Shown: one piece after another, positions 43,952-60,107 of the stretch
How the letters are laid out: the number at the start of each line of letters is the position of its first letter
Position numbering within the stretch: the stretch's first letter is position 1
From: Marinobacter nanhaiticus D15-8W
Lineage (GTDB): Bacteria; Pseudomonadota; Gammaproteobacteria; Pseudomonadales; Oleiphilaceae
NCBI RefSeq assembly: GCF_036511935.1
Contig: NZ_AP028878.1
Location: 2,604,001-2,668,000 of the forward strand
Direction of reading: 5' to 3'
Length of the DNA: 64,000 nucleotides
Made by a program: the position numbers and the translations under genes
The notes under the pieces: model-generated
The model's database searches: none
Told to the model about the DNA's origin: nothing
What the model saw: only the letters and a program-made list of their open reading frames with translations

Positions 43952-44014
43952 TATCTTTGCTCCCTTCGGCGTGCCATACCACGAAAGTTAACTCGCGCAT
44001 CCCTGCGCTGAAAC

Positions 44015-45703
44015 CTACTTTTCCCCCTGCAGCTCCTCAATCGAAATTTCCCGCATCCTGAACTTCTGGATCTTCCCGGTGACCGTCATCGGGAAGCTAT
44101 CCACGAACTTGTAGTTCTTGGGAATCTTGAAGTGGGCGATCTGGCCCTTGCAGAAGGCGATCAGGTCGTCGGCATCCAACGGATCAGCGTCCGGCCTTAA
44201 TTTCACCCAGGCAATCAGCTCTTCGCCGTATTTCTCGTCGGGAATGCCGGTCACCTGGACCTCTTCGATCGACGGATGGGTGTAGAGGAACTCTTCGATC
44301 TCTTTCGGGTAGATGTTCTCACCGCCGCGGATGACCATGTCCTTGATCCGGCCGACGATCTGGATAAAGCCGTCTTCGTCCATGGTGGCGAGGTCACCGG
44401 TATGCATCCAGCCGGCGTCGTCGATGGCTTCCCGGGTCTTTTCCTCGTTGTTCCAGTACCGCAGCATAACGCTGTAGCCACGGGTGCAGAGCTCACCGAT
44501 TTCACCACGGGGAACGACGTTGCCCGTCGCCGGATCGACAATTTTCGTTTCCAGATGTGGCTGGGTGCGCCCGACGGTGGTGACCTGTTTCTCAAAGGGG
44601 TCAAGGGAACTGGTCTGGGTGGATACCGGACTCGTCTCGGTCATACCGTAGGCGATCTGGACCTCTTTCATATTCATCTTGTTGTTGACCTTCTTCATTA
44701 CCTCCGCGGGGCAGATGGAGCCGGCCATGATGCCCGTGCGCAGGCTAGACAGGTCGTAGGATTCGAATTCCGGAACCGCCAGTTCGGCGATAAACATGGT
44801 GGGCACACCGTAGAGCGCCGTTGCCTTTTCCTGGTGGACCGCCTGCAACACGGATGTCGGCTCGAAGCCCTCATCCGGATAAATCATGGTCGAGCCATGG
44901 GTAATACAGCCCAAATTGGCCATGACCATGCCGAAGCAGTGATACAGAGGCACCGGAATCACCAGGCGATCCTTCTCGGTAAAACGCTGGCTCTCGGCAA
45001 CGAAATACCCGTTGTTCAGGATGTTGTGGTGGGTGAGGGTGGCGCCCTTGGGATTGCCGGTGGTGCCGGAGGTGAACTGGATGTTGATCGGGTCATCGAA
45101 CTGAAGCTGGGCCTGGACCTTGTCCAGTTCGTCCTGGCTAACCTTGCTGCCGGACTGTACGAACTCGTTCCAGGTCCACATACCGTCATGTTTGTCGGCA
45201 TCCAGGTTGATAACAGCGCGCAATTCCGGGAGGCGAGCCGCCTTCAGCTCGCCGGGCTTGGCGGCTTTCAGTTCCGGCGCCAGCTCGTACAGGGTCTTGC
45301 GGTAATCCGATGCCTTGAAGCTGTCCGCCGTGACCAGCACGCTGACACCGGCGAGGTTCATGGCGAACTCCAACTCGTGCATGCCATAAGCCGGATTGAT
45401 GTTGACCAGTATGGCACCCACCTTGGCGGTGGCAAACTGGGTGACGGTCCACTCATAGCGGTTGGGGGACCAGATGCCGACCCTGTCGCCCTGCTTGACG
45501 CCGATCGCCAGGAAGCCGCGGGCGGCCTCGTTGACCTTGTCGACGAATTCACGATAGGTCCAGCGAATGTCCTGATGCAGACAGACCAGGGCCTCGGTAT
45601 CGGGGAATGTTGCGGCGGTGCGGTCGAGCATGGCGCCGATGGTCATGCCCAGCAGCGGGGTCTCTGAGGTTCCGCTGGTGTAACTTGGAAGGGTGATGTT
45701 CAT
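44015..45703 (-). CDS. Acyl-CoA ligase (FadD-like AMP-binding protein)
   Basis: Adenylate-forming ligase of 562 aa. The P-loop is [18 protein letters not shown], then [55 protein letters not shown] and the catalytic lysine in [14 protein letters not shown]. It belongs to the medium/long-chain branch; ligases of this type are often found with LiuR-regulated branched-chain acid genes. It is the last gene of merR-AhpD-like-ligase, transcribed from the operator-bearing promoter at 46.9 kb. Substrate unproven. Confidence 0.86.
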
Positions 45704-45793
45704 TACCTCTGCCTCCGTATTTGTTGTAGTCAGGCTCGGCTTTTGTCGTTAGAACGGGTTGTTGTAGTCGGGGGCGAGCAGGGCGGGGGCCTG

Positions 45794-46372
45794 CTAGCGG
45801 CTTTGGCTGTGGTACTCGGGGTTGGGTCGCATATCACTGGCGATCGCGACGCGATTGGACATGTTGTAGAAACCGATCAGGTTACTCAGGTCCCAGATGC
45901 CACGGTCGCTAAGACCCGCATCGCGCAGGACCTGGATATCGTCCTCGGTTACCGTCGCCGGCGAGCGCGTGAGGTGCGACGCGAAATCCAGCATCGCCCG
46001 CTGACGCTTATCCAGTTTGGCGCTGCGGTAATTCATTACCATATGCTCGCCCAGCACAGGATCGTCACTGAGCACCCGCACCGCCGCGCCATGGGCCACC
46101 AGGCAGTAGAAACACTTGTTCTCTGAGGAAACCACCACCGCAACCATTTCCCGCTCCAGCTTACTGAGCTCGCCTTCGCCCAGCATCAGCTCGTTGTAGA
46201 GGTGGGTGAACCCCTCCAACTGCTTCAGGTTCTGGCTGTAGGCGGTGAGTACGTTCGGGATCATCCCCAGTTTTTCCTGGCAGATCGCGAAGTATTTCTG
46301 GGTGTCCTCCGGCATGTCCGCGATTTCAGGAATCGGGAGATCAAGGGCAACCACATTCTTGTTCTGGTTCAT
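45794..46372 (-). CDS. AhpD/carboxymuconolactone-decarboxylase-like peroxidase-related protein
   Basis: All-helical 192-aa protein of the peroxidase-related CMD subgroup. The redox motif is CFYC (87-90) with His94 (CxxCxxxH), preceded by acidic EREMVAVVVSSEN. AhpD relatives use this pair to reduce peroxides or peroxiredoxins. It lies between merR and the ligase with short gaps (38 and 90 bases), so it is probably co-transcribed. What it protects or modifies is unknown. Confidence 0.82.
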   Translation of the reverse strand: MNQNKNVVALDLPIPEIADMPEDTQKYFAICQEKLGMIPNVLTAYSQNLKQLEGFTHLYNELMLGEGELSKLEREMVAVVVSSENKCFYCLVAHGAAVRVLSDDPVLGEHMVMNYRSAKLDKRQRAMLDFASHLTRSPATVTEDDIQVLRDAGLSDRGIWDLSNLIGFYNMSNRVAIASDMRPNPEYHSQSR

Positions 46373-46410
46373 GTCGGATCCTTGTCGTCACACGTCGTGT
46401 CATAGCTGTA

Positions 46411-46860
46411 CTAGGGCTGATCGTTGGCTGCCGCCTTTTCCTTTTTCGCCGGCGCTTGCTGCGCTTTCTTTCTTTTTTGCAGGTCAGCCAGCGCTTCGCG
46501 GCAGCGTGTTTCGGCGACATCCATCTCCATCTCGGCCTGCGCGATATCCTCCTTCTGCTGCTCAAGCATTGCGCGCTTGCGGCTCAGGGTTTCAAGCATC
46601 AGTAGTAACTGCTTTTCGTTGCCGCTGAGGGTCTCGTCCCAAAGATCGAAAAGCTCCTTTGTCTCGGCCAGGGAAAATCCCATGCGCTTACCCCGCAGGA
46701 TGAGCTTGAGCCGGACCCGATCCTTGGAGCTGAAGATTCGCGTTTGCCCGTTGCGAGAGGGCTTAAGTAACTCCTGGTCCTCGTAAAACCGGATACTCCG
46801 CGTCGTTACATCGAACTCCTTGGCGAGTTCGCTAATGCTGTACGTTTCTTTTTTGACCAT
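46411..46860 (-). CDS. MerR-family regulator, LiuR-like
   Basis: A 149-aa MerR protein: winged helix DNA-binding domain at about 7-75 (YSISELAKEFDVTTRSIRFYEDQELLKPSRNG), a coiled-coil dimer helix (about 85-128) and a lysine/alanine-rich tail. It lacks the metal-binding cysteine array of CueR or MerR, having only one Cys, and resembles LiuR, which controls branched-chain amino-acid breakdown. A perfect-arm dyad lies 33 bases before its start. Near-copies precede the ligase and liv operons, implying a local regulon with autoregulation. Confidence 0.86.
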   Translation of the reverse strand: MVKKETYSISELAKEFDVTTRSIRFYEDQELLKPSRNGQTRIFSSKDRVRLKLILRGKRMGFSLAETKELFDLWDETLSGNEKQLLLMLETLSRKRAMLEQQKEDIAQAEMEMDVAETRCREALADLQKRKKAQQAPAKKEKAAANDQP

Positions 46861-46893
46861 AGCGGCTTCCTTTTTTGAACTAGATTAGATTAA

Positions 46894-46911
46894 GTTTACG
46901 TAAACGTAAAC
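46894..46911. promoter_or_regulatory. MerR-type operator (autoregulatory)
   Basis: GTTTACGTAAACGTAAAC has perfect 8-bp arms around AA and lies immediately upstream of merR. Near-copies are at 34290-34307 and 37291-37308. Confidence 0.78.
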
Positions 46912-47131
46912 CCATTTGGAGCGAGATTCCAAACGCATACTGCCTGGCGGAGAAGTACTGATGAATCCGGGGACTGGCATTGGATACAGGGTCGTCGAGG
47001 AGGGTTCACTGCTGCCTGCCGAGGATGGTGCTGGTATGTCCGCTTGGCCTGTTTATTGATCCCGTCCAGCGTGGCGATAAGGATACGAGAAAGGAACCGG
47101 GACGTCCTCCCCCGTGTCGATTCCGTTGCGA

Positions 47132-48163
47132 TCAATTTACCCCGTAGCGGCGGCGACGCTCAAAGCGGAAGAACCCCTCTTCCTCCTCACGAGCGATGGT
47201 TGGCGCGGTCACACCAAAATGTTCCTGGCGCAGGGCCTGCAGGGCACTTTCCAGCTCCTGACCAGACAAGCGCTGCGAGATTGCCTCGCGCTCTGCCATA
47301 TACGCTTTGCCTTTGGTCCACTTTTCCTGCCTTGCCTGGTCTTCTTCCGCGAGTTTTTCGACTACAGCGTCGGAATAGCCTAGTTGCCGCCGTAGGTCAT
47401 TGATCTTTTCCTGACGCTCGTCCGCCGGCAGGGCCTTGAGCTGTGACTGGACGCTATCCATGCTGAAGAGCGTGTGCCCGAGCGCGCCGGATCCGGCCAT
47501 TTGCGCAGTGAGATCGTTTCCGTAGAGCTCATCGACGGTGGTCTGGAGTTGGAAAGCCAGCTCCTGCAGTTGCAGCTCGTCGGCCTGGTTGAGTCGGGAA
47601 AGGGAGTGGGCGAAATCTTCAGATTTCTGTTCCAGTGCGTTCCGCTCATCGGCCCAGATCTGGTTGGCAAGGTCCCCGAAAATCGCTTCCCGCTGCTGCC
47701 AGAGGGCTGCCTGGCGCTCCATTACGCGAAGGCCTTGCAGTCGCAGCTCGTTGTCCTCGAGCCAAGCCTGGTAGCGTTCGAGATCGGTCATCAGAGCCAG
47801 GATCTTTACCTTTAGATCGGGGAAGGCGAGCTGGATCGCCCTGGTAAACAGTTCCGCGCCGTTATCAGGATGCATCTCAAGAAGCTCGTGCCGTTCATTG
47901 AATAGGCGGGCCTGGGTGGCAGGATGCTCAATGGTTTCCCCGTAGCGTTCCAGGTATTGGACGGCAAGCTGCATGGCCAGGTTTGGCTTTGCTGATGTCT
48001 CGGGAGGCGTAGAAGTCGGCTGGATACGCGCGGATTGTCCAGTCGTTGATCGATCTTCGGTAACGGGACCAACGTCCTGATCGGTGTCGCCAAACCAGGA
48101 ATAGGCAGCGAGACTGACCAGCGTAACCGCAGCTAAGGCGGGAAGGGAAAACTTGAGTTTCAT
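47132..48163 (-). CDS. Membrane-anchored helical protein, lipase-chaperone (LifO)-like
   Basis: A 343-aa protein with one N-terminal membrane anchor (about 5-24), a low-complexity Ser/Thr/Pro linker (about 35-60), then long charged helices rich in Glu, Gln and Arg. Length, anchor and the ALWQQREAIFGD and LQALRQEHFG segments resemble lipase-specific foldases. However, I do not find the RxxFDY signature that marks that family. The SGNH-hydrolase lipoprotein gene lies directly upstream on the same strand, which supports a hydrolase/foldase pair. It could equally be an unrelated coiled-coil protein. Confidence 0.5.
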   Translation of the reverse strand: MKLKFSLPALAAVTLVSLAAYSWFGDTDQDVGPVTEDRSTTGQSARIQPTSTPPETSAKPNLAMQLAVQYLERYGETIEHPATQARLFNERHELLEMHPDNGAELFTRAIQLAFPDLKVKILALMTDLERYQAWLEDNELRLQGLRVMERQAALWQQREAIFGDLANQIWADERNALEQKSEDFAHSLSRLNQADELQLQELAFQLQTTVDELYGNDLTAQMAGSGALGHTLFSMDSVQSQLKALPADERQEKINDLRRQLGYSDAVVEKLAEEDQARQEKWTKGKAYMAEREAISQRLSGQELESALQALRQEHFGVTAPTIAREEEEGFFRFERRRRYGVN

Positions 48164-48225
48164 AGAGGCTTCCTTCGAGGTTCCGACAGCCAGAATAATT
48201 CCGGCTGCCGGGATCCAGTCTCCAG

Positions 48226-48999
48226 TTATAGCAACGGCTGCAGTTCCGGCCAGATCAGGTCGGCGATCTTCTTCGAGCCACTCTCGGCGGGATGGATGCC
48301 GTCGAAGATGATATCGCGGTCAGTGATCACCGGGCGCGGATCCACGAACGCGCAGTCCAGGATTGAGTTCCGACAGGCCCTGGCCAGGGTCTGGTTACCG
48401 TAATCCACGGCTTCCTCCATGCTATCGAGCCGGAACAGCCCGTTCTTGGTGTGGTAGTAACCCACCAGGATACCGTTCTTGGCGCCCGCCTGAGCCACCT
48501 CATTAAGGAAATCGACGCCCTCGACGTAGATATCGTCGATCATGTCCTTGCAGTCCTGACTGAGTTGGCCAAAGCGGTACCATGGCGTCTTGCAGTTGTT
48601 GGGATCCAGCGCAATGGCGGGGATCAGGATGTCGTTGCCGCCGCCATCACCGACCATCGTGTCGATGTCTGGATTGTCCGCTACGGCTTCGCGGAACTGG
48701 TCAGGCACAGAGGGCGTAATCAGGCTGCCACTAAGCTCTGCACCGGAAACCGTATAACGGCGGAAGGTTTCGCCGGCCTTGGCCTCCAGCTGGTCCTGGA
48801 TTTCGCCGGACAGGGCGAAGATCGAGTCACCGACGAACACCACCTGGTCGTTATCGGCGTCGGTGACCTTCTCGTTGCTCAGCAGGTAGCCGAGATCGCT
48901 ACACCCGCCCAGTGCGGTCGCACATAGCAGCGCAGCCAGGCCTCGCTGAATACTTGAGGCGTTGAATCGGTAGGTTCGGCGTCCATATGTACTTGTCAT
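48226..48999 (-). CDS. SGNH/GDSL-type hydrolase lipoprotein
   Basis: Predicted lipoprotein of 257 aa with lipobox LGGC (Cys33). The SGNH blocks are nucleophile Ser59 in VGDSIFALSG, GGGND at about 118-122, and the Asp/His pair in FDGIHPAESGSKK. It would be an esterase, lipase or thioesterase anchored in the envelope; four further cysteines may form disulfides. It is followed 62 bases later by the foldase-like gene. It is divergent from the selenium cluster and seems unrelated to it. Confidence 0.83.
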   Translation of the reverse strand: MTSTYGRRTYRFNASSIQRGLAALLCATALGGCSDLGYLLSNEKVTDADNDQVVFVGDSIFALSGEIQDQLEAKAGETFRRYTVSGAELSGSLITPSVPDQFREAVADNPDIDTMVGDGGGNDILIPAIALDPNNCKTPWYRFGQLSQDCKDMIDDIYVEGVDFLNEVAQAGAKNGILVGYYHTKNGLFRLDSMEEAVDYGNQTLARACRNSILDCAFVDPRPVITDRDIIFDGIHPAESGSKKIADLIWPELQPLL

Positions 49000-49312
49000 T
49001 GTTCGGGCTCCGTTTTGTAAGGGATCAAGCGTCGTCCTGAAATGGCCAGACAGGCGTTTCCATTAACGACACCTTTACCTTTGTCCACGAGCCGAACCTT
49101 CGCCAAGGTACAGGGTGACAAAAGCCTTGTTAGAAGCGGCCAACAATTAAGTAACGTGAACTGGATCCCGTTTCACCCCGGTTTCTGATCAGATTCGCTG
49201 GCGGCCCGTATATTCGATTACCGCAATAGCGAATAGGCGATCGGTTTCAAAAGCCGGAAAGCGTACAATCAAGTGCAATTTTTCCATAACGAAGCCAACC
49301 GACGGGGGCAAC
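49000..49312. other. Divergent intergenic region before the selenium cluster
   Basis: 313 bases with no gene. It contains an inverted repeat TATTCG..CGAATA (49211-49235, 13-base spacer) about 80 bases before the first cluster gene, a weak candidate operator. No selenium-specific riboswitch or SECIS-like hairpin was recognised. Confidence 0.55.
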
Positions 49313-50671
49313 ATGGACGACCGAGCAAGTTTGCTTCAGGCGTTGGACCAGACCCGGAACCGCACCCTGGCGCTAATTGAATCCTTGGGGAACGACCGGT
49401 TGCAGGTTCCCTATCATCCAGGCGTCAACCCGCCACTCTGGGAAGCGGGTCACTGCGCGTTTTTCTACGAAACCTTCGTGCGCAAGCCTCTCGACGGCAA
49501 GGAATCGTATGACCCGTCGATGGACGAGATCTGGGATTCGTTCCACCTGGATCACGAGGACCGCTGGAACCCGGAGCTCTTTCCCGCCAAGGCGGACACC
49601 CTGCATTACTTCGACACGATCTACCGGGCCATGCGCGAGCGCATCCAGGAGGCGCCGCTGACGGACCAGGCGCATTACCTGACCAAGTACGCCATCTTCC
49701 ACCAGAACATGCACGTCGAGTCGATGATCTGGTGCCGTCAGACCGAGGGCTATCCGCCGCCCCCCAGTGCGAGGACGACTCCGGACGATATTCCGGCCGC
49801 AGATCCGGACGTTCACGGCGATGCCGTAATTCCCGCTGGACGCTACCGGATCGGCATGCCGGGGCAGTCCCCAGACTATGCCCGCCAGGATTTCGCCTTC
49901 GATAACGAGAAGCCCGGCTTTGCCGCGGAGGTTCCTGGCTTCAGCATATCGCGCACCCTGGTCAGCAACGGGGACTTCCAGGCCTTTGTCGAGGACGGCG
50001 GCTACGAACGACGCGAGTTCTGGAGCCAGGGCGGGCGCAAATGGCTCGACACCGAAATGGACCTGGCATTCGGTACCGCCGAATCACCGCGCTATGGCAA
50101 GCCGGCACATCCCTACTACTGGCGGCGCGGAGTCGAGGGATGGGAGGAGCGTCATTTCGATCGGTGGCGCCCGCTGCGCGCGGATTTTCCCGTGAAGCAT
50201 GTGAGCTATTGGGAAGCGGAAGCCTACTGTCGCTGGGCCGGCCGGCGCCTGCCCACGGAAATCGAGTGGGAAGTGGCCGCGCTGGGTAACCGCCCGGATG
50301 CGCCGTTCCGCCGCTTCCCCTCGGGTAACGAAATGGAGCCGTCGCGGGTGGATATGAATGGCACCGGCCTGGCCAGCCAGCCTGTAACAGCGTTACCGGA
50401 AGGCGAGAGCCCCTTTGGCTGCCGCCAGATGGTAGGCACGCTCTGGGAGTGGACCAGCGACCAGTTCCTGCCTTACGACGGGTTTGCAGTGGACGTTTAT
50501 CCCTTCATGTCTACGCTGCAGTTCGGCAACCACAAGACCACGCGGGGCGGGTCCTGTGCCACGTCCTCCATACTGATCCGCGGCACGTATCGGCAGGCCT
50601 ATCTGCCACAAAGGCATGATGTGTTCGTCGGCTTCCGTACCTGTGCCATCGATAGTCCGGAGAATGCATGA
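49313..50671 (+). CDS. ovsA: EgtB/SenA-like non-heme-iron enzyme, probable 5-selenohistidine-forming OvsA
   Basis: Predicted to attach selenium (from a selenosugar) to the imidazole C5 of histidine. The 452-aa protein has a DinB-type helical domain (1-165) and a C-type-lectin/FGE-like domain (170-447). The three-histidine iron site is visible: His47 in LWEAGHCAF, and His130 and His134 in [10 protein letters not shown]. The lectin-like part has [37 protein letters not shown] and a family end VFVGFRTC. EgtB, SenA and OvoA share this fold. Coupling to an OvoA-type methyltransferase, plus senB and selD nearby and no egtD, points to ovoselenol and not selenoneine. The gene name follows my recollection of the published ovoselenol pathway. 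Confidence 0.8.
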
Positions 50672-51426
50672 ATCCGTACGAGACCGACGAATTACTCGCA
50701 CAGTACCTGGATTTCCATTACGGTCCCGAGCATTTCGGCGTGCCGAATTATCCGCGCGCCTGCGCTGAACTGGGTATTGCGGCACTCGGTAATAGCCCAT
50801 GCGTGAAGGCACTGGACCTGGGATGCGCGGTCGGCCGAAGCAGCTTCGAACTGGCGCGCTGTTTTGCCGAGGTCACAGGGATCGATTTGTCCCACCGGTT
50901 TATCGAGACCGCGTCGAGACTCGTGGAGCAGGGTGCTCTCGGTTATCAGGTACCTGATGAGGGGGAGCTAAAGATCGAACGCCACGCGGATCTTGATGCG
51001 CTGGGTCTGGCCGAAACCAAAGATAGGGTGCGATTCACTCAGGGGGATGCCAGTCAGGTCGACCCCAATCTTGGATCGTTCGATCTGGTGTTTGCAGGCA
51101 ATCTCATCGACCGGCTGAATGATCCTGCCGCTTTTCTCGCGCAAATGCCCGATCTAGTCCGTCCCGGTGGTGTACTGTTAATCACGTCGCCGTACACGTT
51201 GCTAACGGAGTACACGCCAAGGTCAAACTGGATCGGTGGCTTCGAGCAGGACGGAAGGTCCGTCCGGGTCATCGATGGTCTGCGCCAACACCTTGAGCCC
51301 CAATTTTCGCTCCAGCCGTCCACACGCGACCTACCGTTTGTGATCCGCGAAACGAGCCGCAAGTTTCAGCATACGTTGGCTGAGGCATCGGTCTGGAAGC
51401 GGGCTGAGGCGGACGGCGCTGTATGA
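50668..51426 (+). CDS. ovsM: OvoA C-terminal-like SAM methyltransferase, probable selenohistidine N-methyltransferase OvsM
   Basis: Class I methyltransferase of 252 aa. It matches the C-terminal domain of ovothiol synthase: [18 protein letters not shown], the SAM motif [17 protein letters not shown] (48-63), [24 protein letters not shown] and [20 protein letters not shown]. In OvoA this domain is fused behind the sulfoxide synthase and methylates the imidazole nitrogen of 5-thiohistidine. Here it is a separate protein with a 4-bp ATGA overlap after the EgtB-like gene. Together they give about 704 aa, close to a full OvoA. Predicted product: N-methyl-5-selenohistidine. Confidence 0.82.
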
Positions 51427-51476
51427 GGGTGACGGCAAGCGAGGGTCCGAATTCGTTCTCGAGTCGCCTTTTAACA

Positions 51477-51577
51477 GGCAGCCCTGTGGGCTGCTCCGAA
51501 GCTGAAGCGTCGGCTACATTTCCCAGTCAACTCGAGTATGTAACAGAAGCTTCAGCTTCTGAGGCGCCGCAGGTGCC
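51477..51577 (+). repeat. Dispersed palindromic element, copy 6 (inside the selenium cluster)
   Basis: GGCAGCCCTGTGGGCTGC hairpin, long central dyad and GGCGCCGCAGGTGCC hairpin. It is the only copy between co-directional genes, 50 bases after the methyltransferase stop and 84 before senB. It may cut or reduce read-through to senB. Confidence 0.85.
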
Positions 51578-51661
51578 CAAACCTTTCGAGCTCTCGGTAG
51601 CCACCGGCACAACCGCAGCCTCCGCAAATAAAACCATACGGCAAATAGACAGCGCACCCCC

Positions 51662-52627
51662 ATGCTAATCCGTTTGATAACCCCACCAGGCACCCAGCAA
51701 ATCGGTGGCGGAAACCACGCAACGGCCGAGCGCTGGGCGGAACTCTTGCGCTCCCTGGGGTATGAGATAGTCATCGCCGACCGATATGGCGACGAAGCGG
51801 CCGACCTGATGATCGCCTTGCATGCGTGGAAGTCCGCCGAGGCCATCCAGCGCTACCGAATGCGCCATCCCAAAGCGCCGCTGATCGTAGCGCTCACCGG
51901 CACCGACATCTACCGCTACCAGCATTCCGATCCGGAAGTGACAAACCATTCCATGCAGCTTGCCGATGTGCTGATCGGCCTGCACGAGCGTGTAACTGGC
52001 GATATTGACCCAGCGTTCTCTGGAAAGGTTGAGGTTGTGCTCCAGTCGGCGGTAGCGCCAGGGCATGCGGAAACCAGTAAATCCGACGGCTTTGAAATCT
52101 GCCAGATAGCCCACCTCCGTGAAGAGAAGGACCCTTTTCGAGCGCCACTGGCGGCTCGCGGGTTACCGGAAGCGTCGCGCGTGCGCATCGCCCATGCAGG
52201 GAAGGCCTATTTCGACGACTGGGCCCGGCGGGCCAAAGAGGAAGAAACGCAAAACCCCCGCTATAGCTGGCTGGGAAATCTGGAACGTGAGGACATATGG
52301 GCGCTCATGGCCCGCAGCAGCGCCCTGGTGATCAGCTCAGTTTCCGAAGGAGGTGCAAACGTAGTGTCCGAAGCCTGTGTGGCGGGTTTGCCCATCCTCG
52401 CCTCGAGGATACCAGGCAATATCGGCTTACTGGGCGAGGACTACGCCGGATATTTCCCGGTCGGTGACTCCGTCGCGCTTCAGGTACTGATGCAGCGATT
52501 GGAGGACGACGCCAACTTTTGGAACCAACTACGTGGTCACTGTCGTACAAGAGCTGCCTTGTTAACCCCGGCAGCCGAACGAGCCTCCCTCCAGCGGGCC
52601 ATCGAACGCTGTCTCAAACCAGGCTAA
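51662..52627 (+). CDS. senB: Selenosugar synthase SenB (TIGR04348-type glycosyltransferase)
   Basis: GT-B glycosyltransferase of 321 aa. In characterised systems SenB uses selenophosphate and a UDP-sugar to form a selenosugar, the selenium donor for C-Se bond formation. Features seen are GNHATAERWAELLRSLGYE near the start, LIVALTGTDIYRYQ, and the donor-site block SSVSEGGANVVSEACVAGLPILASRIPG. No strong Shine-Dalgarno precedes ATG 51662. Its last 14 bases overlap the convergent selD gene, so the selenium donor and selenosugar genes are tail-to-tail. It is recognised by family pattern, and its neighbours agree. Confidence 0.86.
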   Translation: MLIRLITPPGTQQIGGGNHATAERWAELLRSLGYEIVIADRYGDEAADLMIALHAWKSAEAIQRYRMRHPKAPLIVALTGTDIYRYQHSDPEVTNHSMQLADVLIGLHERVTGDIDPAFSGKVEVVLQSAVAPGHAETSKSDGFEICQIAHLREEKDPFRAPLAARGLPEASRVRIAHAGKAYFDDWARRAKEEETQNPRYSWLGNLEREDIWALMARSSALVISSVSEGGANVVSEACVAGLPILASRIPGNIGLLGEDYAGYFPVGDSVALQVLMQRLEDDANFWNQLRGHCRTRAALLTPAAERASLQRAIERCLKPG

Positions 52628-54884
52628 TCGGTCCGATGGCGTCACCCTCCGGCAAGATCTCACCAACAATCGTTGTGTGACGATAACCAAGGGCAACCAG
52701 TGCGGCCACCGCATCGTCGGCACGCTCAGCGGGCACACTGGCCAGCAAGCCACCCGAGGTCTGGGGATCGAAGGCCAGCGGGTAACGTGAATGCTTTATG
52801 GCGTCTTCCTGATTGTTGATTGCACGACGCAAACGGACATTTGCAGGTTGTAGCGAGCTGAGGATGCCGGCTGCAACCGTTTCCTCGGCGCCAGGCAGCA
52901 AGGGCAGACGATCCAGCTCGATCCGGGCATCCACACCTGACGGACGGGTCATTTCCACCAGGTGGCCAACCAAGCCGAACCCGGTGATGTCGGTGCAAGC
53001 CGTCGCACCGTGCGCACGTAGGCATTCGGCGGCTTTCTGGTTGGACTGGGCCATCGAGATAAGGGCAGTATCAATCCAACGGCCATCGGCCTTGAGCTGG
53101 GCATGGGCTGCGAAGAGGGTGCCCGTGCCCAATGGCTTGGTCAGGATCAGCACGTTACCCGGCTGCATCCCGCCTTTCTTCAATACCGTATCCGGATCGA
53201 TCAGCCCGTTGACGGCAAAACCAAGCGCCAGTTCCTGGCCTTCTCCGGTATGACCGCCGACCAGCGCGCAACCGGCTTCGTTCAGGGCCTCGACAGCACC
53301 GGACATCATCTGGAAGACGGTATCTTCGACCTTTGATTCCAATCCCGGGGGAACCGTAGCCACCGCCGTCGCGGTCTGCGCTTCAGCACCCATGGCGAAC
53401 AGATCGCTGAGGCTATGAACGGCGGCAATACGCCCAAACAGGTAAGGATCGTCGATAAAGGCACGGAAGAAATCCACGCTGTGCACCAGGGCCTTGTCAG
53501 GTGGAATGCGCATGACCGCCGCATCGTCAGGATCATGCAGGCCGACCAGCACATCGTCCCGTTGGACTGTGGTAAGGCGTCCGATCGCCCGGCTTAGCAC
53601 AGAGGCGCCCACCTTGGCGCCGCAGCCTCCACATCGCATGGCGATTGCCGAAAGCGCCTGGGCAGCTTCCTCGCCCTGGAGCGCGACTTCAGGTTGCCCT
53701 GTCTTTCCGGATTCCGCGTCCATGGCTGGCAGGTCGTTGAACTTGCTCATGAAGCGTCGGTCGATCCAGTCTTTCCAGCGCCATACCCAATTGCCCTCGA
53801 AACCGAGGCCTCCCCGCGAAGCGACGGCGTGGCGGTCGCCGGTACTGATCAGTGCCAGCCAATGCTTTTGTGGGCGGAAAGGCCTCGGCGACTTGCCAGT
53901 AACAATCCGCCTCAGGTTTGTTGCCAGCGGCGGGCCCTGCCGCACAGCCATCACACCGGCTTTTTCCCGGGGGTGATTGATCATCGTCGCAATATCCCCG
54001 GCGGCAAAGACCCGCTCGTCGCTGAGGGACTGCAGGGTATCCCCAACCTCGATAAAGCCATCCTTATCAAGATCGAGCCCTGTTTCGGCAAGCCAAGGAG
54101 CGCCTCCTGCGCTGGTCACCCAAAGAATTTCGTCGGCGGGGTAGCGCTGGCCGTCGGCACAGACCAGGGCGTGATCCTCAACGGCCGTAATCCGACTCTG
54201 CTGATGCACCTGCACGCCGCGTTCCCGTAAGACCCGCTCAAACCGACGTTGTACGCTGGGCGCGTGCGTGGGGAGTATCTGATTTCCGGCGGTAAACAGG
54301 TGATATTCCAGACCGTGTGCATCCAGCCCCATGGCCTCCAAATCTCGCTTGAGCCGATACTGCATGGCCAGAAGCAGCTCAACGCCTCCTGCGCCGCCGC
54401 CCACTACCACTATGCGCAAGTCTCCATGATCCCGCTCGATACGGTCCAGCAACGACACCCATCGTTCATTGAACAGGCTGATCGGTTTGACCGGCGTGGT
54501 CATCTCCGCAGCGCCGGGCACCTGCGAGACCTGCGGCGTCGCCCCGATGTTTATCGACAGGTAGTCGTACGCCACGGCTGGGCGGGATTTACACAGAACC
54601 TGCTGCCCGTCGCGATCCAGGCCGGCCACTTCATCATGGATAAATCGCGCGCCAGCAAACTCCGCCAATCGCCGCAGGTCGATGTGTATGTCGTCGTAGC
54701 TGTAATGCCCCGCCACATAGCCAGGCAACATGCCCGAGTAGGGCGTATGGGCATCGGGACTAATCAATGTAAGCCGAACGCCTGGAACCGGCTTCATGGC
54801 AAAACGTCGCAGTACGCCCACATGGCTGTGGCCGCCGCCGATGAGCACGATATCGCGAAGAACGGGTTGGCTGTTTTGCTTCAT
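52614..54884 (-). CDS. selD: Flavoprotein-selenide, water dikinase fusion (SelD/SenC)
   Basis: Makes selenophosphate from selenide and ATP. The 756-aa protein has an N-terminal NDH-2-like FAD/NAD(P) oxidoreductase (FAD site IVLIGGGHSHVGVL at 12-25, second dinucleotide motif VVVGGGAGGVELL at 159-171, AAGDIAT near 294-300). A C-terminal SelD domain begins at about 410. The SelD active site reads GGCGAK (419-424), i.e. catalytic Cys421 and Lys424; it is Cys, not selenocysteine. LVGGHTGEG and FDPQTSGGLL are SelD motifs. ATG 54884 is preferred because homology begins there, but 54941 is possible. Next to senB, it likely serves as SenC. Confidence 0.9.
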   Translation of the reverse strand: MKQNSQPVLRDIVLIGGGHSHVGVLRRFAMKPVPGVRLTLISPDAHTPYSGMLPGYVAGHYSYDDIHIDLRRLAEFAGARFIHDEVAGLDRDGQQVLCKSRPAVAYDYLSINIGATPQVSQVPGAAEMTTPVKPISLFNERWVSLLDRIERDHGDLRIVVVGGGAGGVELLLAMQYRLKRDLEAMGLDAHGLEYHLFTAGNQILPTHAPSVQRRFERVLRERGVQVHQQSRITAVEDHALVCADGQRYPADEILWVTSAGGAPWLAETGLDLDKDGFIEVGDTLQSLSDERVFAAGDIATMINHPREKAGVMAVRQGPPLATNLRRIVTGKSPRPFRPQKHWLALISTGDRHAVASRGGLGFEGNWVWRWKDWIDRRFMSKFNDLPAMDAESGKTGQPEVALQGEEAAQALSAIAMRCGGCGAKVGASVLSRAIGRLTTVQRDDVLVGLHDPDDAAVMRIPPDKALVHSVDFFRAFIDDPYLFGRIAAVHSLSDLFAMGAEAQTATAVATVPPGLESKVEDTVFQMMSGAVEALNEAGCALVGGHTGEGQELALGFAVNGLIDPDTVLKKGGMQPGNVLILTKPLGTGTLFAAHAQLKADGRWIDTALISMAQSNQKAAECLRAHGATACTDITGFGLVGHLVEMTRPSGVDARIELDRLPLLPGAEETVAAGILSSLQPANVRLRRAINNQEDAIKHSRYPLAFDPQTSGGLLASVPAERADDAVAALVALGYRHTTIVGEILPEGDAIGPISLV

Positions 54885-55258
54885 GGCGTTGACTTGACGG
54901 GTTGATTGGAACACCAACTGACCATAACGACGGCCTGGCATGAAAGAACGTGCGTAAAACGCTTTGATTTGCGCAGATTATGCTTGTTGTAGGGGCGTGC
55001 AGCGCTGTCGGGATGGTACCTGACATCCTGGCTGGCGCGCCAGTTGATATGCCCGACCGTCCGGGGATCGGGCCACGGTCAACGATTCATCAAAGTGCGA
55101 CCACGATAAATAGGTCTTGCCCAGCGCCTGATACATCACCAGAAGTGATGATAAGAATGTCGAAACAGAATTATTCCTGCGCTACATCACCATAAATAAT
55201 CACCCAACGACATGGTTTTCTCGGACATTCCGAGAATGACGCAAAAGGGAGTTGGGGA
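54885..55258. other. Divergent intergenic region with two palindromes
   Basis: 374 bases, AT-richer. A hairpin CATCAC..GTGATG is at 55134-55150 and a perfect dyad TTCTCGG-ACATT-CCGAGAA at 55218-55236, 22 bases before the kinase-like gene. No gene was seen. Confidence 0.6.
55218..55236. promoter_or_regulatory. Perfect palindrome before the kinase-like gene
   Basis: TTCTCGGACATTCCGAGAA has 7-bp arms and a 5-bp centre, with no T-run after it. An operator or 5'-UTR hairpin is likely. Confidence 0.55.
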
Positions 55259-56035
55259 ATGAATTCTACAGAGTGCTCTTCCTGGGACCATCTCAATTGC
55301 AAAGCGCCGTTGCCTCCGAATCATCAACGGTCGTCACACTGGTACAAGGCGAAGATCTCTGTAGGCACAGATCCGCAGGGCGAGAAAAAAATACTCAAAG
55401 CGTATCCCTCGCCAGGGTTTCCCATCAGATACTACTTCCTCGCCCTCGCTAACCGTGAATACAGGATGTTGAAGCGGGTTGAAGGGCTGCCATTCACGCC
55501 AATGGACGTGGGACGGGACCGACGCGAGGGGAATCTCATTTCTTACCAGTATATCGACGGACGTTCGATTAAAGCTGTGAGCAAAAGCGACACCATCCCG
55601 AAGGACTTCTTTCCCAAGCTATATTCCGCTGTCCTCGACTTGCACCAGCAGGGCACAGCCCACCTCGATCTGGGTAATTCGGGCAATATACTGGTCACAC
55701 GGAATGGCAATCCGGTCATCATCGACTTTGGATCAGCGTTCTCGCTGGAACGTCTCCCCGGATACCTGCAACGCTGGATGCGAAAGAAAGACCTGCTTGG
55801 GATGCTGAAACTCTGGCGGCGATTCGATAGAGAAACGATGCCTGCCTTTTTACTCGAGTATTACCGGCGTAACTACAAGAAGAATATTTACACCCCCAGG
55901 CGTTTCTACAAGGCGACAAAGAGACACTTGTTAAAAAGGCTTGCACGTCGCTCGGCAAGCAATGCGGACGATGCGGCAATCCTCAGAATCGTAGGGCTAT
56001 TTTTTGGACTCATGGTTTTGATTTCGCTCTGGTAG
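55259..56035 (+). CDS. Kinase-like membrane-tethered protein (RIO/LPS-kinase type), function unknown
   Basis: A 258-aa protein with a minimal protein-kinase fold. It has a probable ATP lysine in KKILKAYP (about 47), catalytic loop HLDLGNSGN at 135-143 and metal-binding DFG at 156-158. The loop form HxDLxxxN resembles LPS core (Waa/Kdo) or Bud32/RIO kinases and not Hanks kinases. The C-terminal 18 residues form one hydrophobic segment, preceded by a strongly basic stretch, consistent with inner-membrane attachment. Lower GC and more Lys/Tyr than its neighbours suggest it was acquired. GGGAGTTGGGGA precedes the ATG. Substrate unknown. Confidence 0.7.
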   Translation: MNSTECSSWDHLNCKAPLPPNHQRSSHWYKAKISVGTDPQGEKKILKAYPSPGFPIRYYFLALANREYRMLKRVEGLPFTPMDVGRDRREGNLISYQYIDGRSIKAVSKSDTIPKDFFPKLYSAVLDLHQQGTAHLDLGNSGNILVTRNGNPVIIDFGSAFSLERLPGYLQRWMRKKDLLGMLKLWRRFDRETMPAFLLEYYRRNYKKNIYTPRRFYKATKRHLLKRLARRSASNADDAAILRIVGLFFGLMVLISLW

Positions 56036-56177
56036 GTTCGGTGCATATGTACAGACCTCCCGGACCTGGTCATAGGCGAGTAGCTTGTGGGTTTGATATG
56101 GTCTGGGAATAGCGTGATGTCGGCGGTTTGTCATCGCAACCCTATGCCATTCATCCCAATGATTAGAGGTGTGCAAC

Positions 56178-57335
56178 ATGAGCCAATCCGCAATCCCGGA
56201 AACGATGAAAGCAATGGTGCTGACCGGCCATGGCGACGTGGACAAGCTGGTATATCGGGAGGATGTGCCCACGCCCAAACCTGGTCCCGGCGAGGTTTTG
56301 GTCAAGGTAACGGCGACCGCCAAGAACAATACGGACCGAAAGGCGCGTGAAGGCCTCTATCCCACGAAAGATAAGGGCGACGTCACCTCCTTTGCCATGG
56401 GCGGAGAACCCACCCTGACATTTCCTCGCATCCAGGGCGCCGATGTCGCAGGGCAGGTGGCCGCTGTGGGCGAAGGCGTCGATGAGAAACGGATCGGCGA
56501 GCGGGGCCTGCTGGATTTCAACATCTATCCGGATAAACGGCGCGATATCAACCTAACGCCGGACTACTACGGGCACGGTGCCGATGGCGGATTTGCCGAA
56601 TACATTGCGGTGCCTTCCGATCAATTCCACCACATACCCAACCCGGAGCTGGCAGATGCCGAATTGGCGGCGATGGGGATGTGCTCCTACCAAACGGCCT
56701 ACCACATGATGACCTCCGCGCGAGTCAAAGCCGGTGAGCGTGTCCTGGTGACCGGCGCCAGCGGTGGTGTCGGAACGGCCCTGATCCAGCTCTGCCGCAT
56801 CGTCGGCGCGACACCCTATGCGCTAAGCACGCCAAGTAAGGCCGAGTCTCTCAAAGCGCTTGGCGCCGAGGCTGTGTTGGACCGTTCCGATATGGGCCAG
56901 TTCGAGGAACGGGTGAAGGACGTCACCGGCGGCGCGCCATTCGATGCGGTGATGGATCTGGCCGGCGGCGAGATGACCAACCAGTTCATCGACGCGATGA
57001 TCTTCGACATGAAATCGCGCAAGGACTATCCGCGGCTGAGTATTGCCGGCGCCAGTGCGGACAATGTATCGGAGATCATGTGGACGCGGATCTACCTGTA
57101 TCAGGTACAGATATTCGGCGTATCCCACGGTACCCGCGAGGAAGCCGAACAATTGATGGACTGGATCCGGGGCGGCCAACTCAAACCCATCCTTCACGCG
57201 GCGTTCAAACTGTCCGATCTGCACGAGGCGGAGCGCTATTTTGTCACTCGGGGCAGCGGATACTTGGGGAAGATCGTGATCGTGCCCGAATCCGAGTGGG
57301 AAAAGCATGGGGCGCGATTCGCCCTGTCCTCTTAA
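56178..57335 (+). CDS. MDR-superfamily alcohol dehydrogenase/quinone oxidoreductase-like protein
   Basis: Medium-chain dehydrogenase of 385 aa. A GroES-like N-terminal domain (VLTGHGDVDKLVYREDVPTPKPGPGEVLVKV) precedes a Rossmann domain with VLVTGASGGVGTALIQLCRIVGA. The structural-zinc cysteine cluster is absent, so it is probably a zinc-independent NADPH oxidoreductase. ATG 56178 has AGAGG 8 bases upstream; a GTG 9 bases earlier is too close. It is a monocistronic unit. Confidence 0.85.
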   Translation: MSQSAIPETMKAMVLTGHGDVDKLVYREDVPTPKPGPGEVLVKVTATAKNNTDRKAREGLYPTKDKGDVTSFAMGGEPTLTFPRIQGADVAGQVAAVGEGVDEKRIGERGLLDFNIYPDKRRDINLTPDYYGHGADGGFAEYIAVPSDQFHHIPNPELADAELAAMGMCSYQTAYHMMTSARVKAGERVLVTGASGGVGTALIQLCRIVGATPYALSTPSKAESLKALGAEAVLDRSDMGQFEERVKDVTGGAPFDAVMDLAGGEMTNQFIDAMIFDMKSRKDYPRLSIAGASADNVSEIMWTRIYLYQVQIFGVSHGTREEAEQLMDWIRGGQLKPILHAAFKLSDLHEAERYFVTRGSGYLGKIVIVPESEWEKHGARFALSS

Positions 57336-57707
57336 CGGCAGGGTGTAAGTATATAGACAGGCTATCTGAGAGCGGGCATCCCGGGCGGCGACACGAACAC
57401 CTAGGCCAGATTCGATCCAATTCTCAAGACGGAAGCCAAAAGACCTTTTGTACAAGTGGGCACGTCTTCTGGCCTCGCATAGGTGTTATAAAGTAACAGC
57501 TGAGAATGGGCACCGAACCCTCTCTATCTATTTGTTAATGAAACTAGGGTAAAGTTGCCGACCAAGAAGCCACTTAAAGCAGTACGGCCATCGTTTGGTT
57601 GAAACGTTTGATCTGACGGGGCGTCGTCAGAAAGAACGCGCGGGAACCATGTAGGGTACTGGAAACAGGCAATCCTGGAAGATTGCCTGGCAGGTCTGAC
57701 TGAAGGC
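57336..57707. other. Convergent intergenic region
   Basis: 372 bases between the MDR gene and the cupin gene. It contains the terminator at 57667-57690. Otherwise I see no gene, repeat or operator. Confidence 0.6.
57667..57690 (-). terminator. Hairpin terminator of the cupin gene
   Basis: CAGGCAATC, a short loop and GATTGCCTG, followed on the reverse strand by TTT, about 20 bases after the cupin stop. Strong stem, weak T-run. Confidence 0.65.
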
Positions 57708-58151
57708 TTAATCTTTCTTGACCGGGCCTGCGAGGTAGACATCATCGGTTACCGCTTCGAACCAATCGACAGGTTTGCCGTCCTGCGCTTCCTGGATAGC
57801 CACGTGCTGCATCGCCGTCTTGTCCGTAGCGCCATGCCAGTGACGGCGTCCACAGTTGCACCAGATCAGGTCACCCGGACGAATCTCCGTCTTCGGACCA
57901 CCTTCGCACTGCGTCCAGCCTACGCCATCTGTAACCAGTAGAATCTGTCCCAACGGATGACTATGCCAATGGGTGCGTGCCCCGGGTTCAAAGTTGACGA
58001 CGGCGAGGCCTACGCGCGAAGGCTCGGGTGCACTGAACATGGTGTCGATACGGACATTGCCGGTAAAGGTTTCAGCGGGTCCCTCGATAGCCTCTGTAGA
58101 ACCGGCGCGCTGGATTTGCATATCTTCGGATGACTTATCGGACTCACTCAT
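57708..58151 (-). CDS. Small cupin-domain protein
   Basis: A 147-aa single-domain cupin. Metal ligands lie in HWHSHPLGQ (motif 1, His-x-His with a later Gln) and GRRHWHG (motif 2). Proteins of this kind are often paired with CMD or oxidoreductase genes and some are hydroxynitrile-lyase-like, but no activity can be assigned. ATG 58151 has GGAGG about 9 bases upstream. It is divergent from a LysR regulator that probably controls it. Confidence 0.8.
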
Positions 58152-58253
58152 GGAAAAGGCCTCCGTTAATTGGACGGTCACACATGTGATCCGTCATGGG
58201 GAAAGTTACCGCTAAACAAAAAGTAGCAAACATCGATTGAATAGATTAAGTGT

Positions 58254-58268
58254 TGAATTATAAATTCA
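58254..58268. promoter_or_regulatory. Palindrome between cupin and LysR genes
   Basis: TGAATTATAAATTCA has perfect 6-bp arms around ATA. It sits 21 bases before the LysR start in the shared divergent region, a candidate LysR binding site. Confidence 0.5.
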
Positions 58269-58288
58269 GCTTGAAGCGGAGCTTCATA

Positions 58289-59188
58289 ATGGTAAATCAC
58301 CACCTGGACGACCTGGCGGTTTTCGTGGCCGTTGGGCGCGAAGGCAATTTCACCAGGGCGGCGGCTCATCTCGGAGTTTCCCCGTCCGCTGTAAGTCAGA
58401 CCGTCCGGAGCCTGGAAGAACGCCTGGGCGTCCGTTTATTGACGCGTACGACACGCAGTGTGACTCGGACAGAAGCAGGGGAGAAGCTTTGGCGATCCAT
58501 AGCGCCGTTGCTGGACCAGATCGATGAGCATCTATCGGCGGTTGCCGATTACCGGGAACATCCGGCAGGAACGGTAAGGATAACGGCCGATGAGTTTGCC
58601 GTGCGCTTTATACTGTGGCCCAAACTCAAACCGTTACTGGATACCTATCCGGAAATTACGATTGAACTGACCACCGACTATGGCCTGACGGACATCGTTG
58701 CCGAACGGTTTGACGCAGGGGTGCGAGTGGGTGGTGTCATTGCCAATGATATGATCGCAATGCCCATCGCGCCACGAATGCGCCTGGTAACCGTCGCCTC
58801 GGCGGATTACCTCGCCCGGCACGCCGCGCCCCGGACGCCAGCGGAATTGACCGGTCACCGCTGTATTAACCTCCGCCTCCCGACCCAAGGTGGACTCTAT
58901 CCCTGGGAGTTCGGAAGCGGGGAACATGAATTCAGGGTTCGCGTTGACGGCCCGTTGATCATGAATAGCGTATTGCAGATTCTGCAGGGGGCCATCGAAG
59001 GGGTGGGCTTGGCCCAACTGCCCAATGGCCTGGTTCAGGACTACCTGGACCGTGGTGAGCTGGTTGAAGTCCTGCGGGAATGGTCCGAGCCCTTCGAGGG
59101 TTACCATCTCTACTATCCCAATAGACAGCAAACGGCGGCCTTTCGGGTCGTCCTTGATGCGCTGAAGTCCGGTGCTATTCAAGACTGA
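58289..59188 (+). CDS. LysR-family transcriptional regulator
   Basis: A 299-aa LTTR. The N-terminal winged helix-turn-helix spans about 5-62 (DDLAVFVAVGREGNFTRAAAHLGVSPSAVSQTVRSLEERLGVRLL), followed by TRTTRSVTRTEAGEKL and an effector domain of the CrgA/DmlR-like group. ATG 58289 has GGAG 7 bases upstream; a longer frame would run through the palindrome. The divergent cupin gene is the probable target. Confidence 0.87.
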   Translation: MVNHHLDDLAVFVAVGREGNFTRAAAHLGVSPSAVSQTVRSLEERLGVRLLTRTTRSVTRTEAGEKLWRSIAPLLDQIDEHLSAVADYREHPAGTVRITADEFAVRFILWPKLKPLLDTYPEITIELTTDYGLTDIVAERFDAGVRVGGVIANDMIAMPIAPRMRLVTVASADYLARHAAPRTPAELTGHRCINLRLPTQGGLYPWEFGSGEHEFRVRVDGPLIMNSVLQILQGAIEGVGLAQLPNGLVQDYLDRGELVEVLREWSEPFEGYHLYYPNRQQTAAFRVVLDALKSGAIQD

Positions 59189-59240
59189 ACGCCCGAAACC
59201 CCGGCTCTGGTAATGCCGGCTTGCACTTACCTTTTCTGAC

Positions 59241-60107
59241 TCAATCAGGAAACACCACTGTCCGGTTGCCGTGTAAAAATACCCGTTTCTCGATGTGATA
59301 ACGCACTGCCCGGGCCAGGGTCTGGCTCTCTATATCCTGACCTTTGGCCACCAGGTCCTCAGGGTAGTGGCCATGATCGACCGGTTGTACACCCTGGGTA
59401 ATGATGGGCCCCTCGTCGAGGTCGTCGTTGACGTAGTGGGCGGTTGCGCCAACCAGCTTAACTCCCTTTTCCCAGGCCTGATGATACGGCTTTGCGCCTT
59501 TGAAACCCGGCAGCAGTGAATGGTGGATATTGATGGCGCGGCCGTCCAGCCGAGCAGCCAGCTCCGGCGACAGGACCTGCATATAGCGCGCAAGCACGAC
59601 CAACTCACAGCGGTATTCCCGTATCAGTCGCCAGAGTTCGGTTTCCTGTTGGGGTTTGGTCTCCGCCGTAATGGGCAGGTGGAAATAGGGGATACCGTGC
59701 CAGTCCGCCAGGGGCTTCAGGTCAGGGTGATTTGACACGATAAGCGGTATGTCCATCGCCAGTTCGCCCTTGCGGAAACGGTAGAGCAGGTCGTTGAGGC
59801 AGTGATCAAATTTGGACACGAGGATAGCCACCCTCGGGCGATGATCGGGCGATGTGAGCTCCCACTGCATGTCAAACGGGGCAGCCCGATCCCCGAATAT
59901 CGAACGGAATCGCTCGAGGGAGTCCTCCCCCTTCAATGGACGCAGTTCAACGCGGATGCTGAAACTTTTCGTCGCACGATCGTCGTAGGAATTCATCGCG
60001 ACAACATAGTTTTCCGTTTCCGCCAGGGCGCGGGTGACCACGTCGACCGTACCCAGGCGGCTCGGACATTGGGCGGTGAATATCCATAGGTCTTCGTTGA
60101 TAGCCAT
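59241..60107 (-). CDS. purU: Formyltetrahydrofolate deformylase PurU
   Basis: Hydrolyses 10-formyl-THF to formate and THF. The 288-aa protein has an N-terminal ACT regulatory domain (about 1-85) and a formyltransferase-fold catalytic domain with VAILVSKFDHCLNDLLYR, INIHHSLLPGFKGAKPYHQAW and HYVNDDLDEGPIITQ. It is next to sarcosine oxidase genes, whose reaction loads THF with one-carbon units, so it would balance folate pools. It is transcribed with soxG after a 59-base gap. Confidence 0.94.
   Translation of the reverse strand: MAINEDLWIFTAQCPSRLGTVDVVTRALAETENYVVAMNSYDDRATKSFSIRVELRPLKGEDSLERFRSIFGDRAAPFDMQWELTSPDHRPRVAILVSKFDHCLNDLLYRFRKGELAMDIPLIVSNHPDLKPLADWHGIPYFHLPITAETKPQQETELWRLIREYRCELVVLARYMQVLSPELAARLDGRAINIHHSLLPGFKGAKPYHQAWEKGVKLVGATAHYVNDDLDEGPIITQGVQPVDHGHYPEDLVAKGQDIESQTLARAVRYHIEKRVFLHGNRTVVFPD

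Follow-up and report, generated by a model that had tools for sequence, protein, structure and literature searches.

Probable ovoselenol biosynthesis cluster in Marinobacter nanhaiticus D15-8W

The ovoselenol pathway was reportedly described by Kayrouz et al. in Nature Chemistry in 2024. In the ovothiol pathway (OvoA/OvoM), histidine is also the acceptor, OvoA uses cysteine, and the pathway is not known to include SenB. The selenoneine pathway of Variovorax paradoxus (SenA-SenB-SenC) combines selenosugar supply by SelD and SenB with an EgtB-fold enzyme, SenA, which takes hercynine as acceptor; it is not known to include an OvsM. The ovoselenol enzymes are represented by two groups of PDB entries, titled "Selenoxide synthase OvsA" (8u41/8u42/8ux5) and "5-selenohistidine N-methyltransferase OvsM" (9bxh/9bxj/9bxk). 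The existence of ovoselenol, an antioxidant, is reported in PMC13188914, and PMC10702425 describes the SelD, SenB and SenA steps of the selenoneine route as established in relatives. A literature search found no paper on selenohistidine and, among the matches listed for OvsA and selenium, none on this enzyme. It also found no paper on ovothiol in Marinobacter; the side observations made here may nevertheless already be published.

Gene content and layout of the locus

In a window of 64,000 nucleotides from M. nanhaiticus D15-8W, a sequence-only reading had proposed a probable ovoselenol cluster of four genes. All four were found where it had placed them, and the proposal was borne out by phylogeny and active-site comparison. 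The locus is very probably an ovoselenol biosynthesis cluster with a predicted product, and thus a new example of an already described bacterial pathway that adds selenium to histidine. It has all four components of the ovoselenol pathway, matching OvsA and OvsM residues and clades, and adjacent ovsA and ovsM. Unlike in that pathway, however, its SelD is an FAD-oxidoreductase fusion encoded convergently with senB. Furthermore, in the locus whose OvsA is identical to the part of 8u41 that was printed (L123, genome G172), senB lies upstream of ovsA.

Three of the genes, ovsA (49313..50671), ovsM (50668..51426) and senB (51662..52627), lie on the plus strand and span 49313-52627, and ovsM overlaps ovsA by 4 nt, its ATG running into the ovsA stop codon (ATGA). 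The selD gene (52614..54941, minus strand) converges on senB with a 14-nt overlap and is not part of a shared operon. A promoter scan of 48900-55300 detected no sigma-70-like promoter (shuffle mean, 2.3), and no Rfam match was present in 44000-60000. Carriage on plasmids was also considered, but only 7 of 72,556 plasmid records matched at an E value of 1e-40 or better, the best at 39% identity.

A kinase-fold gene is located near the cluster (55259-56035) and another near the egtB-egtD genes of the same genome (L006:2598-3866); their products are 28% identical over 217 aa. In a sister genome (G145), which has all four cluster genes in the same order and with different immediate neighbors, the kinase-fold gene is absent beside the cluster.

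The selenoxide synthase and the selenoneine alternative

The ovsA product (452 aa) is an EgtB-fold protein with DinB_2 and FGE-sulfatase domains, assigned as a non-heme iron selenoxide synthase. Its best solved relative in a phmmer search was 8u41 (678 bits; 63% identity over 450 aa), followed by 8ux5 (670 bits), EgtB (186 bits) and SenA (159 bits). In a 139-row tree, it fell inside an OvsA clade of 47 rows (SH-aLRT, 99), which is sister to 70 SenA-like rows, and OvoA was separated from it by a long branch. The tree includes the L123 protein, which is identical to the printed 450 residues of 8u41. The protein lay outside the EgtB clade and scored 268 bits with TIGR03440 (cut-off, 360). This phylogeny, together with the residue comparison below, had been suggested as a check by the sequence-only reading, and it placed the protein with OvsA and outside SenA, EgtB and OvoA.

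Residues were compared in an alignment of 157 rows (65 OvsA, 70 SenA-like, 18 EgtB and 4 OvoA). The predicted iron ligands His47, His130 and His134 were indeed present in all 157. At three acceptor-site positions, the protein carries Met399, Gln428 and Ala429, whereas SenA and EgtB have Tyr, Asn and Phe; since the motif used to label rows as OvsA includes Met399, the Met399 column is circular. Gln428 and Ala429 were found in 65 of 65 OvsA rows, while SenA-like rows have Asn (66 of 70) and Phe or Tyr (70 of 70). Ala429 alone is no marker of OvsA, because all four OvoA rows also have Ala. The OvsA variant in 8ux5 carries Tyr, Asn and Phe at precisely the equivalents of positions 399, 428 and 429.

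We considered whether the cluster makes selenoneine, with the EgtB-fold enzyme acting as a SenA on hercynine from the genome's EgtD. The names assigned to relatives say SenA, and the protein passed the NCBIfam SenA model (438 bits; cut-off, 420). However, this call is not specific, because the L123 OvsA also passes the model (428 bits). By clade and by acceptor-site residues the protein is not a SenA, and it is only 32% identical to the Variovorax SenA (P0121). As the sequence-only reading stated, there is no egtD in the window, but the statement fails for the genome, which has an egtB-egtD pair at C1:1464039-1466419 (EgtB, 541 bits with TIGR03440). Hercynine is thus probably available in the cell, and the argument for histidine as acceptor from a missing egtD does not stand; it must rest on OvsA membership instead. 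With ovsM directly 3' of ovsA as a further point against it, selenoneine production by this locus is very improbable. Free histidine is the inferred acceptor of the window OvsA, judged from its sequence.

Methylation and selenosugar synthesis

The ovsM product (252 aa) was identified as a stand-alone SAM-dependent 5-selenohistidine N-methyltransferase. It scored 297 bits with TIGR04345 (ovoA_Cterm; cut-off, 170) and 365 bits with 9bxh (69% identity over 245 aa), in comparison to 46-50% identity with OvoM and OvoA C-terminal domains. The methyltransferases of the window, the sister genome, Marinimicrobium and 9bxh formed one clade (support, 100/100). In line with these data, the coupled stand-alone methyltransferase, previously described as OvoA-C type, was confirmed and placed with OvsM. 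An AU test did not reject a single origin of all stand-alone methyltransferases (p = 0.074).

The homology to the ovothiol N-methyltransferase raises the alternative of a sulfur pathway, in which an OvoA-like enzyme would work with an OvoM-like methyltransferase. The TIGR04345 score, a TIGR04344 match of the EgtB-fold protein and the Ala shared with OvoA at position 429 are compatible with it. However, the TIGR04344 match (122 bits) is far below the cut-off of 400, and the methyltransferase is encoded by a separate, unfused gene. The long branch to OvoA, the higher identity to OvsM than to OvoM, the adjoining senB and selD, and the strict co-occurrence of SenB in the genomes tested also speak against an ovothiol pathway, which we regard as hardly credible.

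The senB product (321 aa), predicted as SenB, was verified as this Se-glycosyltransferase (selenosugar synthase): it scored 386 bits with TIGR04348 (cut-off, 300) and shares 37% identity with 8k5u over the portion printed. Its residues N18, T21, K156, E229 and E237 align with N20, T23, K158, E231 and E239 of the studied SenB, the roles of which are given in PMC10891094.

We suggest the following route. The SelD fusion would convert selenide and ATP to selenophosphate, from which SenB would make a selenosugar with a UDP-sugar. With iron and O2, OvsA would join this selenosugar and free histidine at the imidazole C5, forming a selenoxide that would release the sugar to leave 5-selenohistidine. 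OvsM would then methylate an imidazole nitrogen, yielding ovoselenol, the expected product of the locus. The reaction details of OvsA and OvsM belong to the background; what was computed here is which genes are present and in what order, to which families they belong, which residues are conserved and how the genes co-occur across genomes, and we infer that the window copies are expressed and catalyze the same reactions as their relatives.

An OvsA-clade enzyme with an altered acceptor or methylation pattern could instead lead to a further selenometabolite. The link to ovoselenol is based on sequence, and at 63% identity to a characterized OvsA the substrate could have shifted. Yet every position that distinguishes OvsA from SenA-like rows has the OvsA residue in this enzyme, and the window OvsA and OvsM each fall among the PDB proteins of those names, so that a different product is scarcely to be expected. 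The fallback of a further selenometabolite was not needed, since the protein groups with OvsA.

The SelD fusion, co-occurrence and selenium supply

The selD product (775 aa), which would take the role of SenC, matched both TIGR03169 (531 bits; cut-off, 310) and TIGR00476 SelD (305 bits; cut-off, 125). It was below the cut-offs of TIGR04369 "fusion_not_SelD" (481; cut-off, 700) and of the SelD model PRK00943 (225; cut-off, 299). The earlier assignment as Cys-type SelD was correct (C437xxC440, key residues kept); additionally, the protein is a fusion with an FAD-dependent, NADH-dehydrogenase-like oxidoreductase. Position 54884, where the cluster had been thought to end, is an internal ATG at residue 20 (MKQNSQP); because the SelD of the sister genome starts at the equivalent residue, it is probably the true selD start. 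An FAD-type N-terminal domain with a Cys-type, CxxC-containing SelD is also described for the Ndh-SelD fusion of marine bacteria in PMC2398784 and PMC4561486.

All 18 OvsA genomes tested had both SenB and the TIGR04345 methyltransferase above cut-off, and none of 8 relatives lacking OvsA had either one; the two co-occurred with OvsA even where the genes are scattered, and senB and selD were about 4 kb apart or less in 16 of the 18. For many Marinobacter loci (e.g., L022, L024 and L026-L029), the stretch retrieved contained OvsA but neither ovsM nor senB. The idea that such genomes make another product was weakened by the presence of both genes in all 18 genomes searched whole, a set that leaves out the genomes of these named loci.

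The cluster SelD is the only SelD above cut-off in the genome. By tblastn, four of four same-genus genomes keep an Ndh-SelD fusion at the usual selD site, whereas the window fusion adjoins ovsA-ovsM-senB; the usual site is empty here and in one sister, where the cluster copy is also the sole selD. A genome search for tRNA selenation found SelU; SelA was looked for and not found. Because the usual site is empty and the cluster selD is the only copy, tRNA selenation probably depends on this copy.

Tentatively, a self-contained selenium island may have been acquired horizontally with its own FAD-SelD, after which the native selD was lost and the operon came to supply selenophosphate for tRNA selenation. 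A freed OvoA C-terminal domain may likewise have replaced OvsM in some Marinobacter-type relatives, with sulfur and selenium histidine pathways swapping parts. We hold this joint reading to be possible but somewhat doubtful, and rated it lower because the same-genus SelDs did not form one clade.

In summary, the locus adds a gammaproteobacterial ovoselenol cluster backed by residue, tree and co-occurrence evidence. Since the standard SenA annotation model also takes in OvsA, databases probably assign selenoneine production too often. Gln428/Ala429, Met399 and a neighboring OvsM together offer an easy way of distinguishing genomes with the ovoselenol pathway from those with the selenoneine pathway. 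With the empty selD site, the link between a selenometabolite operon and the selenium supply of tRNA becomes testable.

Identity of the cluster

The four genes that the sequence-only reading had assigned to the cluster are present where it placed them: ovsA (49313-50671, + strand), ovsM (50668-51426, +), senB (51662-52627, +) and a gene for a FAD-oxidoreductase/SelD fusion (52614-54941, - strand). Family scans placed the EgtB-fold protein above the SenA cut-off, assigned the next two products to ovoA_Cterm and SenB, and placed the fusion above the cut-offs of TIGR03169 and TIGR00476; on TIGR04369 ("fusion_not_SelD") it scored 481, below the model cut-off of 700. Both in the window and in the sister genome G145, ovsA shares 4 nt with ovsM, and the convergent senB and selD share 14 nt.

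The top two PDB matches of the EgtB-fold protein were the selenoxide synthase OvsA entries (678 and 670 bits), followed by EgtB (186 bits) and SenA (159 bits). From 159 homologous rows, L119 and L120 (window copies) and L068 were removed and 17 OvsA rows were thinned, leaving 139 (47 OvsA, 70 SenA-like, 18 EgtB and 4 OvoA; a fifth OvoA locus, L104, fell below the collecting threshold). Rows were labelled by active-site motif, OvoA by locus instead. Each group formed one clade in the quick tree (SH-aLRT 99, 91, 100 and 100, respectively), and OvsA was sister to the SenA-like group (SH-aLRT 83) in this tree, for which the tool warns that the long EgtB and OvoA branches meet. The window protein grouped with those of G145 and Marinimicrobium within the OvsA clade. 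Another row, L123, matched all 450 printed residues of the OvsA structure 8u41.

His47, His130 and His134 were present in 157/157 aligned rows. Met399, Gln428 and Ala429 were found in all 65 OvsA rows; Met399 belongs to the labelling motif, while Gln428 and Ala429 lie outside it. At these columns, SenA-like rows carry Tyr (68/70), Asn (66/70) and Phe or Tyr (70/70), EgtB rows Tyr (18/18), Asn and Phe (17/18 each, one unreadable), and OvoA rows Phe, Tyr and Ala (4/4, where the alignment is least sure). The Met399 column is presumably that of EgtB Tyr377. In PDB 8ux5, an OvsA variant, the three places hold Tyr, Asn and Phe, and since it swaps exactly these residues, its depositors evidently took them as determinants. 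PMC10903977 names Tyr377 as an active-site residue of EgtB.

OvsM shows 69% identity with the OvsM structure 9bxh, compared with 50% for an OvoA C-domain and 46% for OvoM. It shared one clade with 9bxh (support 100/100) in a methyltransferase tree from which 9bxl, L103 and L139 were left out as long branches; they were included in a quick tree. SenB keeps Asn18, Thr21, Lys156, Glu229 and Glu237, which align with N20, T23, K158, E231 and E239 of the studied SenB. According to PMC10891094, activity of the latter was nearly abolished by K158A and by E239A, and was <20% in E231A and <10% in the N20A/T23A double mutant. The window SelD resembles Ndh-SelD fusions in carrying CxxC, as reported for them in PMC2398784.

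Together, the OvsA clade and active-site residues, the OvsM clade and the SenB/SelD residues bear out the earlier assignment. Judged by its sequence, this is an ovoselenol cluster, of a kind already known and published in 2024, and its product would be ovoselenol.

Genomic context and co-occurrence

The window's genome, 100% complete at 5.41 Mb in 2 contigs, contains a single gene above the SenA-model cut-off, the window ovsA, and one each for SenB, TIGR04345 and SelD. SelU scored 351 (cut-off 220), and SelA had no match in this genome. The sequence-only reading argued partly from a missing egtD that free histidine is the acceptor; the absence holds for the window only. By profile matches above cut-off, an egtB-egtD pair lies at C1:1464039-1466419 (L006:7040-9420), with EgtB at 541 bits (cut-off 360) and the adjoining EgtD at 401 (cut-off 291). 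Therefore, ergothioneine is probably produced alongside ovoselenol. Near the ovoselenol and ergothioneine loci lie two kinase-fold genes (55259-56035 and L006:2598-3866, respectively) that belong to the same family (28% identity over 217 aa), probably by coincidence.

Of the window's own genome and its relatives, 77 in all, 19 had an OvsA-type match at ≥60% identity. In G161 this match is a fragment at a contig edge, and that genome was left out of later searches, so that the sample comprised 18 OvsA genomes and 8 of the 58 without OvsA. SenB and TIGR04345 were each above cut-off in 18/18 versus 0/8, in related genomes that amount to fewer than 26 independent trials. The genes ovsA, ovsM and senB lay together in 8 of the 18, ovsA-ovsM lay together with senB elsewhere in 4, and all were apart in 6. 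Since the genes co-occur even where apart, this is more than linkage. The fusion itself is older and more widespread: a fusion-sized SelD frame was detected in 22/26 genomes, with or without OvsA.

In gammaproteobacterial contigs (L044-L047), OvsA adjoins a SenA-like gene, and such pairs possibly serve two selenometabolites. Basal OvsA-clade proteins of Planctomycetota and Verrucomicrobiota (L048-L052) are accompanied by senB, with OvsM absent within the fetched stretch; the product there is perhaps unmethylated 5-selenohistidine.

The NCBIfam model NF041186 (SenA, "equivalog") exceeded its cut-off on the OvsA proteins of the window, P0004, P0098, L048 and L030, and on L123, which agrees with 8u41 at every printed residue. 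L051 and L044 fell just under the cut-off; a Variovorax SenA (P0121) scores 525. "Selenoneine synthase" is the name that a source gives to 27 of the 120 OvsA relatives listed, and most others are nameless.

Possible methyltransferase exchange and the empty selD site

Four OvsA genomes (G178, G185, G188 and G190) each have one TIGR04345 gene above cut-off, and no OvoA match was found in them in the search of 77 genomes. Their stand-alone methyltransferases (that of G178 placed through the identical P0241) fell among relatives' OvoA C-domains, split from the OvsM clade with support 100/99. G187 has a stand-alone OvoA-C-type gene and a full OvoA. G189 (L171, L196, L197) has OvsA and SenB without OvsM, and its sole TIGR04345 match above cut-off lies within a full-length OvoA. 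These data suggest that the role of OvsM passed to an OvoA methyltransferase domain in some OvsA genomes; since a single origin of all stand-alone methyltransferase genes gave p 0.074 in the AU test, this remains a suggestion. Stand-alone methyltransferases of Marinobacter-type OvsA genomes (L199:7480-8238, L173-L176, L213), placed among OvoA C-domains, may substitute for OvsM.

In same-genus genomes without OvsA, selD is flanked on one side by a gene for an HHH-domain protein and on the other by one for a phosphonate-binding protein (4/4), as in G183. Both flanking genes are intact in the window's genome (L211, C1:2741001-2756000) and in G145 (L212), with no selD between them. tblastn detected no selD remnant at the site, the one 10-residue match (E 0.68) lying inside another gene, and the only SelD above cut-off in either genome is the one beside ovsA-ovsM-senB. 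In G178, senB lies beside selD at the usual selD site; in G189, senB occupies that site and selD is gone. One explanation of the empty site is simple relocation of selD. In a 12-row SelD tree, the two cluster SelDs stood apart from the same-genus SelDs, and a constraint holding the six together, with the groups defined in advance, gave p-AU 0.016. Nor do the four same-genus SelDs form one clade. We prefer replacement of selD by an acquired gene over relocation. In summary, the cluster is ordinary as a finding, and the two evolutionary side observations are of value.
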